From Synechococcus sp. PROS-9-1 (GTDB taxonomy: Bacteria; Cyanobacteriota; Cyanobacteriia; PCC-6307; Cyanobiaceae), in assembly GCF_014279775.1 (NCBI RefSeq), contig NZ_CP047961.1, positions 1,302,001-1,366,000 on the forward strand: a DNA stretch of 64,000 nucleotides, read 5' to 3'. Under the pieces are notes generated by a model, which was given only the letters and a program-made list of their open reading frames with translations, had not been told where the DNA came from and searched no databases. Below, piece after piece: positions 38,168 to 42,183 of this stretch (position 1 is its first letter; each line of letters starts with the position of its first letter). Both the position numbers and the translations under genes were made by a program.

Positions 38168-39667
38168 TCAGGGCAAAGGTGGGGGAGGGAGCACTGGTGC
38201 AGGCGGTGCTCCATAAATGATGCTTTTTTCGTCATCCGCTGAGGACACTGATTCCTGTTCCTTAAGCCCAGGGGTTGGAGAGATGGGCTCTGGCCAAGCT
38301 TCAGGATCCTCCGGAAGGATCTGATCCTCCTGAAGCAACACGGGTGGCGGTAGGTCCGGAGGCAGATCGAAATCCCATTGCTGAGTCTCAGCATCTGAGT
38401 TGAACAACTCGTCCTGATCGCTCTCAATGTCATACCGTTCTCGGAGCACGAGTGGGTCGGCGGTAATCGGAGGTTCGCGCAGCGGTTGCCTCGCAGGAAC
38501 TCTTTCGGTGACAGGTGCGGTCTTGTTGTGATCGAGACGTGGTGTGGGCTTAGGCGCCCAGATCATGCGCGCAATCGGCTCAACACCCTGCTCCATCACA
38601 CGGTTCAATCCAGCCAAAGCACGATCGATCAGCTGCCCTCCATAGAAGAAGGCACAGTCCGATGCACCTTCACAGCGCTGGCTGGTCTCGATGCGTCTGG
38701 TCAAATCAGCGATCAGCCCTCCTTCCAGTCGGACACGGCGCTCACTCAGTCGCAGGAGGTAGGGAACATGCACAAAGCTGGTGGCGCCGCCACTAATCCA
38801 GTTGGCATCCTCTTCGGTGAAACCTTTCACTCCAGGAATGATCAGACGACTCTTCGAAGCGTGATCAGGCATGTAGGCGGCCACAAGACCCCGCCGACGT
38901 GCCAGATCCTTCGTTTGCTCAAGCGTGAGACCGTCTTTACTCATCAGCATTTCAATTCGGGCATCGGCCCTCAAGCCGTAGACCATGCGGATGCGAGGGA
39001 GGTAATAACGAATCCGTTGGCCCATGCTGATGCTGTAGGCCCCCTTATAGGTCTCAGGTGGCTCCTCCAGGTCGTTGTAGATGCTGTGCAGACCCCCCAC
39101 AAACATGTCGTAGGTCTTGGCCCGATCGGGAGTTAACTCTCCATAGCCAAAATCAACGCTTCCATCCTTGAGGATGCCAATGAAGGCACGCTGTCTTGAA
39201 GCCGTTCGATTGCGTCCACGCCAAACCCTGCTGCCGAATTTCAAATCACCTAGTGGAACGGTGATTTCCTGTCCAGACTCATCAATATGCCGCTCATACA
39301 TCGGTCCAGAGACGTAGGCGAGAGCAGCAGTGTCTTCGAAGGCATCCTGTTCACGATCCCAGCCTTCAAGGAGACCGAGCCGCACATCACGTGGGTCGAA
39401 ATCGAGGGCATAAACCTCGTCATCCGGTTGGTAAGCAAAAGGCCCCGCCTCAGAGTCGGCGGTTTCAATCGGCTCAGGCTCTGTCGCAATCTCCCTTTGT
39501 TCGGGAGTTCTAGGCGCAAGAGCAATCAGACCCGTGAAGACCGTTATGGGGACCACCACGATCAACCAACGCTTGCGCCAGAGGCTGGAACGCTGGGGCT
39601 TGGGCTTACGTCTCTTTTTTTGAGCGGAGATGTCAGCAGCAGAAGCTGAAGTCCGATTTCGAATCAC
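38168..39667 (-). CDS. Membrane-anchored hypothetical protein, 499 aa
   Basis: It starts at GTG 39667, overlapping the upstream stop as GTGA. A basic N terminus (QKKRRKPKPQRSSLWRKRW) precedes one membrane helix (LIVVVPITVFTGLIAL, about residues 35-50). A long extracytoplasmic domain follows with motifs such as ISMGQRIRYYLPRIRMVYGL and GATSFVHVPYLLRLS, and a Pro/Asp/Glu-rich tail (about residues 390-499). The family is not recognised. An in-frame TTG at 39712 is an alternative start. Confidence 0.74.
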   Translation of the reverse strand: MIRNRTSASAADISAQKKRRKPKPQRSSLWRKRWLIVVVPITVFTGLIALAPRTPEQREIATEPEPIETADSEAGPFAYQPDDEVYALDFDPRDVRLGLLEGWDREQDAFEDTAALAYVSGPMYERHIDESGQEITVPLGDLKFGSRVWRGRNRTASRQRAFIGILKDGSVDFGYGELTPDRAKTYDMFVGGLHSIYNDLEEPPETYKGAYSISMGQRIRYYLPRIRMVYGLRADARIEMLMSKDGLTLEQTKDLARRRGLVAAYMPDHASKSRLIIPGVKGFTEEDANWISGGATSFVHVPYLLRLSERRVRLEGGLIADLTRRIETSQRCEGASDCAFFYGGQLIDRALAGLNRVMEQGVEPIARMIWAPKPTPRLDHNKTAPVTERVPARQPLREPPITADPLVLRERYDIESDQDELFNSDAETQQWDFDLPPDLPPPVLLQEDQILPEDPEAWPEPISPTPGLKEQESVSSADDEKSIIYGAPPAPVLPPPPLP

Positions 39668-39876
39668 CGGACCAGCCTTTTTTTTCGAGCTCGGGATTCG
39701 GGGTTCTGCCAAGGAACAATGGTGCCCTCAGCCACCAACCATTTGCGGTAAACCTGACCGCATTCATGCCCTCCCGTCAACTCACCAAAGACAGGAATCA
39801 GCAATCTCTCCTCCTTAGCGTCGAAGGCAAAGCAGGGAAGACGAAGACGATCCCCCAGAGCTGAGGCTCCGAACAA
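39664..39876 (-). CDS. Conserved hypothetical protein, start uncertain
   Basis: The 70-residue version starts at TTG 39876 (MFGASALGDRLRLPCFAF). The frame is open further up to 39984, and that extension reads as a signal peptide (LALLPCLSSLPGLLALAEG) followed by ALFEPKGCPITLFG, but has no ATG, GTG or TTG. Either translation begins at a rare codon or a frameshift lies upstream. The mature part has cysteines at PKGC, LPCF and HECG. The stop overlaps the next start (GTGA), supporting a translated gene. Confidence 0.5.
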   Translation of the reverse strand: MFGASALGDRLRLPCFAFDAKEERLLIPVFGELTGGHECGQVYRKWLVAEGTIVPWQNPESRARKKRLVR

Positions 39877-40159: not shown

Positions 40160-41247
40160 GTGATACGTACGCTTTTTCTCACTGGAATCGCTCTGATTTC
40201 ACTTCCCATTCAGACGGTTGCGAAGCAAGTCGCGCAGGAAGCCATCAAGGAGTTACGGATTGGGGTGAGTGGGACCCCTCCATTTGTAATGGAGCAGGAT
40301 GGTGAACTAAGTGGCATAAGTATTGAGATTTGGAAAGACGTGTCAAAGCGTCTAGATCAACCCTACACATTTATTGTTCAGCCAAATACCAATGCAAATA
40401 TACAAGCTGTAGCTGATGGGAACGTTGATTTAGCCATCGGTCCAATCAGCATTACACCAACACGATTAGCCAATCCAAAGATCAATTTTACGCAACCCTA
40501 TTATCATGGACATGAGGGCTTACTCATTCATAAGAAACAACCAGGAATTATTGAGCGTTTACGACCATTTATTGGCTGGGCCGCTTTGTCTTCAATAGGC
40601 ATACTTGTGATAGTTCTATTTATTTTTGGAAACCTCATTTGGTTGGCAGAGCGACGCAAAAATAGCAAACAGTTTCCCCGCGCAATTTCCATGGTGTTGG
40701 GAATGGCATGTGGTTTGGGCTTGTCACACTAACAACAGTGGGGTATGGAGATCGTGCACCTTTATCAAGAAGTGGCAGAGCAATTGCAGGCATTTGGATG
40801 GTGATCTCACTTGTAGCGGTATCGTCAATTACTGCCGGCCTTGCATCAGCATTTACATTATCCCTGGCACAGATGGCGCCTTCAGGGATTCGGAATAAAG
40901 ACGACTTGAAAGGCAAAAAATTAGCCGTTATAAAAGGAACGACAAGCCTAAGATGGGGTGAAATATATGAAACCGATGCTTTCCAAACCGAAAATTTAAA
41001 TGAATCAATAACAATGCTAAGGAGTGACGAAGTAGAAGGAGTTATTTTTGACCGTGCGCCGCTTCGCTACTACCTCAAGCAGAACAAAGACAGCAATCTT
41101 AAATTAGCGGATTTTCCACTTGCTGTTCAAACGTATGGATTCGTACTACCGAAAGGCAGCTCATTAATAACCCGATTAAATATTGAGATAATGGAAATGG
41201 AATGGAACGGAGTAACAGAAAGAATTGAGACAAAATTGTTAGACTAA
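40160..41247 (+). pseudogene. Glutamate-receptor-type potassium channel (GluR0-like), frameshifted
   Basis: The gene is split into two frames. Frame 1 (GTG 40160 to stop 40732) gives a signal peptide, the first lobe of a periplasmic ligand-binding domain (ELRIGVSGTPPFVMEQDGEL), and a membrane helix (about residues 138-160, WAALSSIGILVIVLFIFGNL). Frame 2 (to 41247) gives the pore with the K+ selectivity filter TLTTVGYGD, a second helix, and the second ligand lobe (GKKLAVIKGTTSLRWGE). Adding one base in the C-run at 40676-40679 joins them as FPPRNFHGVGNGMWFG. It is either a recent loss-of-function, a phase-variable tract or a sequencing error. Confidence 0.85.
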
Positions 41248-41255
41248 GAATACAT

Positions 41256-41492
41256 TTATCGAATCACAGTGTGGCGTCGTAAACCATCTTCAATCAGAAA
41301 TGTTGCCAGGCTGCTACAGCTCCTCCCTTCCTGAAGGGCTTGCTGCTTCAGCCGGCTCATAATGCCAGCGGGAAGTGTCACGTTGAGTCGCTCAGACGTG
41401 GCCGACTCGGCCACTTGGCCAGCACTGATTGCAGACTCTGCAGGAACAAGCTGATCCTGCAGCTCATGCAAAAGACTCTCAAGAAATGACAC
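41256..41492 (-). CDS. Ribbon-helix-helix DNA-binding protein
   Basis: A 78-residue protein whose C-terminal half (RLNVTLPAGIMSRLKQQALQ...SLATFLIEDGLRRH) has the strand plus two helices of CopG/MetJ-type regulators. The N-terminal half is acidic and may mediate partner binding. It uses a GTG start. Toxin-antitoxin antitoxins have the same fold, but no toxin-like neighbour is visible; the convergent neighbour is the broken channel gene 8 nt away. Confidence 0.72.
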   Translation of the reverse strand: MSFLESLLHELQDQLVPAESAISAGQVAESATSERLNVTLPAGIMSRLKQQALQEGRSCSSLATFLIEDGLRRHTVIR

Positions 41493-41586
41493 GGTTAAGT
41501 TACGTAGACGTTACTATTGCGTACCATAACAAGGGATCTGGCTCCGGTTAGTCTCTTTACTACAAAAGGGAAGACCAATTCGACGA

Positions 41587-42183
41587 ATGAATACGCTGAC
41601 GCTTCATCTTGAGCCAGGCCAAGACCTACTGCTATCCCTGTCGGAGGTAGCCCAAAAGAAGCAGATCAGTGGATTTCTATTAGGGGTTGTTGGAAATCTG
41701 TCAAAGGCATCATTTCAATGTCCCGGACGTGATAAACCAACAGTCTTAGAGGGTGAACTAGAGATCATCACCCTGAATGGAACCTTTCATTCAGACGGAG
41801 TTCATCTCCACTTGAGCCTTTCAGATGGTGCATGTCAGGTTTGGGGCGGGCATCTCGAAAGCGGCTCCCTGATACTGAAAGGAGCAGATCTTCTCCTGGG
41901 AATTCTCAAACAGGGGAAAGAAGCGCGAAGCAAAACCAAAAAACACTTAGAGATCGCAGTACTTCCTGGCTGTCCATGGTGCGATAGTGCACTCCGACTT
42001 TTAGAGTCTTACAACATTCCTCACCTGGTGATCACTGTTGACAATGACGTCACCTTTCAACAGTGTAAGCAACGCAGTGGGATGAATACCTTTCCACAAG
42101 TCTTTATTGATGGAGCGACTGCTGGTGGCTTCGATAGCCTTGAAAAGCTACAACGTTCAGGCGAATTGCTCTCAATGAAATGA
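41587..42183 (+). CDS. PCC/DUF296 domain fused to glutaredoxin
   Basis: A 198-residue two-domain protein. Residues 1-112 form a PCC (DUF296) domain, a homotrimeric fold shared with plant AT-hook proteins, with GVHLHLSLSDGACQVWGGHL as its signature (residues 71-90). Residues about 119-198 form a glutaredoxin with active site CPWC (129-132), cis-proline in TFPQVF (168-173) and GGFDSL (180-185). The two domains are usually separate. A redox-sensing or regulatory protein is plausible. It is isolated, with divergent spacing to the ribbon-helix-helix gene. Confidence 0.9.
   Translation: MNTLTLHLEPGQDLLLSLSEVAQKKQISGFLLGVVGNLSKASFQCPGRDKPTVLEGELEIITLNGTFHSDGVHLHLSLSDGACQVWGGHLESGSLILKGADLLLGILKQGKEARSKTKKHLEIAVLPGCPWCDSALRLLESYNIPHLVITVDNDVTFQQCKQRSGMNTFPQVFIDGATAGGFDSLEKLQRSGELLSMK

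Follow-up and report, generated by a model that had tools for sequence, protein, structure and literature searches.

The window (the whole stretch of 64,000 nucleotides from Synechococcus sp. PROS-9-1 that was analysed) contains a gene whose product appears to join a PCC (DUF296) domain to a glutaredoxin. This raises the question of whether the fusion is genuine and, if so, what a thiol enzyme might do when it is tethered to a PCC module. The gene is laid out as follows, in window coordinates:

41587..42183, + strand: whole PCC-glutaredoxin gene, 198 amino acids plus stop, ATG start; supported by the open reading frame, Pfam and conservation
41587..41907, + strand: PCC domain (PF03479, DUF296), residues 1-107; Pfam and fold match
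41908..41943, + strand: linker, residues 108-119; 9-62 residues long across 86 fused proteins
41944..42180, + strand: glutaredoxin domain, residues 120-198; Pfam and fold match

Both domains of the 198-residue product score well above their Pfam cut-offs, the PCC domain (PF03479, residues 3-100) with 71.1 bits against 25 and the glutaredoxin (PF00462, residues 123-176) with 48.9 bits against 22.9. At E values up to 0.1 the Pfam matches comprise these two and a sub-threshold GST_N_3 match within the glutaredoxin half; a peroxiredoxin domain was not found at this level. The protein does not reach the cut-off of TIGR02181, the Glutaredoxin 3 equivalog (53.6 versus 90). The ATG start is supported by 70 of 74 distinct fused proteins, which have Met at the same position. 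All of the motifs that the earlier note had read from the translation, namely GVHLHLSLSDGACQVWGGHL in the PCC part and CPWC, TFP (with the cis-proline) and GGFD in the glutaredoxin, are present. The gene is the sole PCC match in the 2.27-Mb source genome.

Among 31 genomes from the genus, 29 encode the fusion in a single frame. In 25 of these it is a single piece, cut in one case by a contig end, and in four it appears as two pieces within a single open frame; the remaining two are G017, which has a PCC-only ORF, and a genome that is 63% complete and has no match. The earlier note had allowed for an artefact, with homologues existing only as separate genes and the fusion arising from a missing stop codon in a single assembly. 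Conservation in the same frame in 29 of the genus genomes leaves no room for chance, a missing stop or an assembly join, and misassembly is further excluded by the presence of the fusion in every one of the 44 family members in a class-wide sample. This sample of genomes at least 90% complete, in which fusion was judged from the best E-values and the matches listed, provided the search for the two-domain order across cyanobacteria that the earlier note had proposed, and none of the 246 genomes outside the family contains it. The best E-values are 5.2e-70 or better in the family and 1.5e-45 or worse in the others, where, among the matches listed, PCC matches end at or before residue 147 and the glutaredoxins are separate. 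A broader search revealed PCC domains in 23 genomes outside the family, and a match to the glutaredoxin half was absent from every ORF in 21 loci taken from non-family genomes with PCC.

A hand count of 300 family genomes put the best match at 1.3e-35 or lower in 239, not all of them necessarily full length, values between 4.8e-13 and 9.9e-23 in 12, and glutaredoxin-level matches only, or none, in 49. No PCC match of any kind was found in the family genomes G141, G242 and G280. Since around 18 of the 49 genomes with a low match or none are at least 90% complete, the fusion is common in the family and not universal. Named records that carry it, retrieved with short patterns that reach close relatives only, include Synechococcus, Prochlorococcus, Cyanobium and lake-titled MAGs. 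A restriction to marine clades, which the earlier note had raised, is contradicted by the Cyanobium, LacPavin, LaPlata and K_Offshore records, with habitat taken from the titles. The gene is kept in family members with genomes as small as 1.6-1.9 Mb, suggesting that it is worth its cost. A phage or plasmid origin was rejected, as the fusion occurs in no viral, phage or plasmid record of the collections searched: viral_contigs yielded no relative, and none of 72,556 plasmid and 50,697 phage records covers 80% of the query, the matching ones (23 plasmid and 36 phage records) holding a PCC-like or a glutaredoxin-like stretch. One record titled Phycisphaerae bacterium MED835 (L033) contains a fusion gene that is 88% identical and groups inside the genus of the window; judging from this placement, the contig is probably mis-binned.

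Phylogenetic analysis of the PCC part, computed without the trait columns, places 27 representatives of the 86 fused proteins, together with one truncated former fusion (L029), in a single clade with support of 100/100, set apart from the 41 other unfused rows; this tree and the quick tree used below for the second active-site position rest on few columns or contain long branches. As the fused PCC sequences form one clade, they descend from a single fusion event. The truncated gene (L029/L064, at L064:1269-1619, in genome G017) stops shortly past the PCC part and has kept both Cys45 and Cys83; the stretch that follows resembles a separate gene in another frame, as though the two had been joined by a deletion. 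The neighbours of the fused clade are unfused PCCs from the same family together with betaproteobacterial sequences (L147-L149 and L153), most other cyanobacterial PCCs lying apart (98/96), and from this grouping the PCC half may be of outside origin.

Unfused PCC genes, one or several, are also found in some members of the family (L111, L117-L124, L128, L130, L143 and L144), and the family member G053 has five PCC matches. Most of these unfused sequences group with the fused clade and the betaproteobacterial PCCs and away from the other cyanobacterial ones, and gene transfer is a possible source. A different arrangement is observed in family f25, in which L098 carries a C-terminal PCC domain (residues 484-608 of 641) in a long frame whose N-terminal part is presumably GlmU-like; six f25 genomes of the class-wide sample have PCC within frames of 617-737 amino acids.

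To compare the residues of the PCC half, we aligned 86 distinct fused proteins with 49 distinct unfused ORFs. The fused set is weighted to near relatives, the best matches having been fetched first and divergent ones added separately, and its members are not independent, since 44 are left once none is at least 85% identical to another; the median identity of their PCC parts is 68% and the minimum 39%. Removal of L029 and of six ORFs that lack His73, His89 or Gly36, mostly fragments or spurious short ORFs, left 42 sound unfused proteins from cyanobacteria and proteobacteria. Because these were picked by His73, His89 and Gly36, a count of 42/42 in those columns is uninformative, and the unfiltered figures for 49 ORFs are used there. 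The residues concerned are:

41719..41724, + strand: Cys45-Pro46, fusion-specific; 86/86 fused, 0/42 sound unfused
41803..41811, + strand: His73-Leu74-His75 of the PCC motif; both His in 86/86 fused, His73 in 45/49 and His75 in 46/49 unfused
41833..41835, + strand: Cys83, fusion-specific; 85/86 fused, Gly in 42/42 sound unfused
41851..41853, + strand: His89 of the GGHL motif; 86/86 fused, 46/49 unfused (3 gaps)
41857..41859, + strand: Glu91, fusion-specific; 86/86 fused, 0/42 sound unfused

The HxH...GGH histidine motif (H73, H75 and H89 in the window protein) is common to fused and unfused PCCs; the unfused ORFs that lack His73 or His75 are fragments with a gap there and a single aberrant short ORF. 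Within the 107 residues of the PCC part, 25 columns are invariant (the same residue in at least 85 of the 86 fused proteins), and only four of these residues are seen in none of the 42 unfused proteins, namely C45, P46, C83 and E91, two of which are cysteines. Across the whole protein, Cys is present in at least 85 of the 86 sequences at just three positions, 45 (86), 83 (85) and 129 (86), the next being 132 (54). The one fused protein without Cys83, L125, forms a long branch in the tree. Before the seven ORFs were dropped, Cys45 occurred once among the 49 unfused ORFs (in L029) and Cys83 twice (in L029 and in the short L109 fragment). The fusion-specific cysteines hint that the glutaredoxin may act on its own partner domain.

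The glutaredoxin half retains its characteristic motifs:

41971..41982, + strand: CPWC active site; Cys129 in 86/86, position 132 Cys in 54/86 and Ser in 32/86
42088..42096, + strand: TFP with cis-proline Pro170; Pro in 86/86
42124..42135, + strand: GGFD motif; GG followed by Tyr, Phe or His in 81/86, GD in 5

Cys129, Pro130, Pro170, Gln171 and Gly180 are invariant in this half among the 86 fused proteins, and we take GGFD in the window protein to be the glutathione-groove motif. The window protein has a dithiol CxxC site (CPWC), the second cysteine of which is shared by just 54 of the 86 and is evidently dispensable, to judge from its replacement by Ser in the other 32, a substitution that fits a monothiol, glutathione-type mechanism. 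On a quick tree this position changed between Cys and Ser seven times, at least three of the changes being forced by well-supported branches. The variability of position 132 suggests that Cys129 with glutathione, or Cys129 with a PCC cysteine, is what matters rather than a classical CxxC cycle. At the third residue before the active site, the window protein and most relatives have Leu, the five solved relatives displayed have Lys or Arg, and the GrxA of the same genome has Trp. The loss of Lys here was considered as a sign of glutathione independence and dropped, as the GrxA of this genome has Trp in its place. The presence of this separate GrxA-like glutaredoxin would leave the fused one free for a dedicated task.

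A monomer model from AlphaFold2, built on a 49-row alignment, has two well-formed domains (mean pLDDT 94.6, pTM 0.63) and a disordered linker with pLDDT below 50 at residues 112-116. In the predicted secondary structure Cys45 lies just past the strand 29-44, and Cys83 in the turn that connects strands 71-79 and 85-90. Fold comparison of the PCC part gives 2p6y with Z 20.1 (109 residues, rmsd 1.4) and both 2nmu and 2hx0 with Z 18.4, further matches being 3htn, 3hwu, 2dt4 and 2h6l. The fold of residues 1 to about 110 is thus like that of the stand-alone PCC structures (2nmu, 2hx0, 2p6y, 3htn, 3hwu and 2h6l, Z 14.3-20.1), in which the glutaredoxin half of the window protein has no counterpart. 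In the alignments displayed with the window protein, 2hx0, 2nmu and 2p6y share its histidine motif and have no Cys opposite Cys45 or Cys83. The glutaredoxin part matches Synechocystis GrxA (3qmx, ssr2061) with Z 13.9 and E. coli Grx3 (1fov) with Z 13.3; GrxA has the same glutaredoxin motifs but is a stand-alone protein. The hybrid Prx5-glutaredoxin of H. influenzae (1nm3, HI0572) likewise has a glutaredoxin C-terminal to another domain, and this glutaredoxin half matches that of the window protein in sequence and fold, although its partner is a peroxiredoxin and not a PCC domain. We take this hybrid to be the best functional analogy for reduction in cis. Plant AHL proteins combine an AT-hook with a PPC/PCC domain, and the window protein has a PCC domain with a glutaredoxin instead of the AT-hook.

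The pairing itself is already in print: Alves et al. 2009 (PMC2679010) give "DUF296-GRX" as a bacteria-specific architecture with a glutaredoxin of the CPYC class, and the window protein has the same two domains, DUF296 first. The accessible part of that paper names no taxon and no PCC residues, and offers no mechanism beyond a suggested binding to DNA. Relative to that part, the single origin, the range within the family and the fusion-specific PCC cysteines are new, and the observation on Cys45 and Cys83 in particular looks new. No functional study of a PCC-glutaredoxin fusion was found in the literature searches on DUF296/PCC.

In solved relatives PCC is an oligomeric module, and its histidine motif probably binds a metal or ligand. 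With two new invariant cysteines beside a tethered thiol enzyme, the simplest account is that the enzyme acts on them. We therefore tentatively favour, at somewhat short of an even chance, a redox switch in cis, in which the glutaredoxin would reset the cysteines of the PCC protein that carries it. Cys45 and Cys83 would have come into the PCC half together with the fusion. Either or both would become oxidised under oxidative conditions, forming a disulfide with each other or with glutathione, and this would change what the PCC module binds. The glutaredoxin, moving on its linker, would act on its own or a neighbouring subunit, the flexibility of the linker permitting action within an oligomer, and its Cys129 would reduce or deglutathionylate Cys45/Cys83. 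The state of the PCC module would thereby follow the glutathione pool. The most specific version of this proposal, a PCC oligomer with its own reductase in which the Cys45/Cys83 pair gates ligand or metal binding according to the glutathione pool by way of a tethered, often monothiol glutaredoxin, is rather doubtful. With a switch of this kind, Prochlorococcus, marine Synechococcus and Cyanobium would share a redox sensor, and a bacterial PCC protein would have been given a mechanism. A clade with a PCC-thiol reductase fusion and two gained cysteines also offers a direct handle on the redox gating of PCC modules. Confidence in the switch is limited, because a single origin accounts for both the cysteines and the fusion, which so coincide once only, one coincidence under strong constraint and not repeated co-occurrence.

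It is conceivable that the PCC domain provides an oligomerisation or targeting scaffold and that the glutaredoxin acts on other proteins of the cell, the PCC cysteines being structural or lineage-specific. Lineage-specific residues are to be expected in a fusion that forms one clade, and the fusion specificity of P46 and E91, neither of them a redox residue, equals that of the cysteines, which counts against the switch in cis, as does the absence of Cys83 from L125. The largely intact glutaredoxin motifs would suit action on other proteins as well. Nevertheless, cysteines account for two of the four invariant residues specific to the fusion, and this in a protein that acquired a thiol enzyme, and the residue that became Cys at position 83 is Gly in 42/42 unfused proteins; we regard such a scaffold as unlikely. 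Alternatively, the histidine motif together with Cys45 and Cys83 might bind a metal or an iron-sulfur cluster that the often-monothiol glutaredoxin delivers, shares or controls. Cluster-carrier glutaredoxins have a CGFS active site, whereas the fused proteins have CPxC or CPxS, and this role seems decidedly unlikely despite the occurrence of His73, His75 and His89 in all 86 fused proteins and of CPWS or CPFS in 32 of them. It would be in keeping with the title of the PCC relative AF0104 (2h6l), which is that of a metal-containing protein, and with the entry of the PCC gene BT1116, with a change of about 2, in the accessible part of an iron-stimulon table.

Bacterial PCC (DUF296) proteins are often labelled as DNA-binding by analogy with plants. 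The label stems from plant proteins in which the contact with DNA is made by the AT-hook. This element ([RK]GRP) is absent from the window protein and present in 3 of the 86 fused proteins, with plain GRP in 13, and the fused proteins are acidic, with a median pI of 5.3 and a pI above 8 in only 3/86. A redox-responsive DNA-binding transcription regulator, as envisaged by the earlier note and by Alves et al. 2009 (PMC2679010), in its accessible part, is consequently very improbable, even though several plasmid records label PCC proteins as DNA-binding. The broader suggestion of the earlier note, a redox-responsive regulator or a thiol-controlled ligand sensor, has thus gained in one respect, the two fusion-specific cysteines making a link between the thiol enzyme and the PCC domain likelier, and lost in the other, a regulator that binds DNA.

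The surroundings of the gene were compared across 104 loci, which include duplicates and in many cases just 1.2-1.5 kb of flank. Upstream of the fusion, 71-73 of these loci have a GluR0-like channel gene on the same strand, and 75 have an RHH/CopG-like gene on the opposite strand, which in the window sits between the GluR0-like and fusion genes; many of the more distant loci lack both. An operon with the channel was rejected on account of the intervening opposite-strand gene in the window and of the neighbours missing at many distant loci, and we read the upstream neighbourhood as shared gene order. Promoter-like sites at the gene are not above shuffles, a terminator-like site was not found, and no inverted repeat was found at 41480-41600. 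Further upstream, the window encodes a conserved 514-residue protein (38168-39712, - strand) that matches nothing in Pfam or NCBIfam at E 0.1 and precedes the fusion in 22 of the 104 loci, many being too short in flank to show it. The GluR0-like glutamate-receptor potassium channel of the window (40160-41247, + strand) is split into two overlapping ORFs; in most of the relatives printed it is one ORF of about 350-390 amino acids, and the window copy looks frameshifted, as a pseudogene or through a sequencing error.
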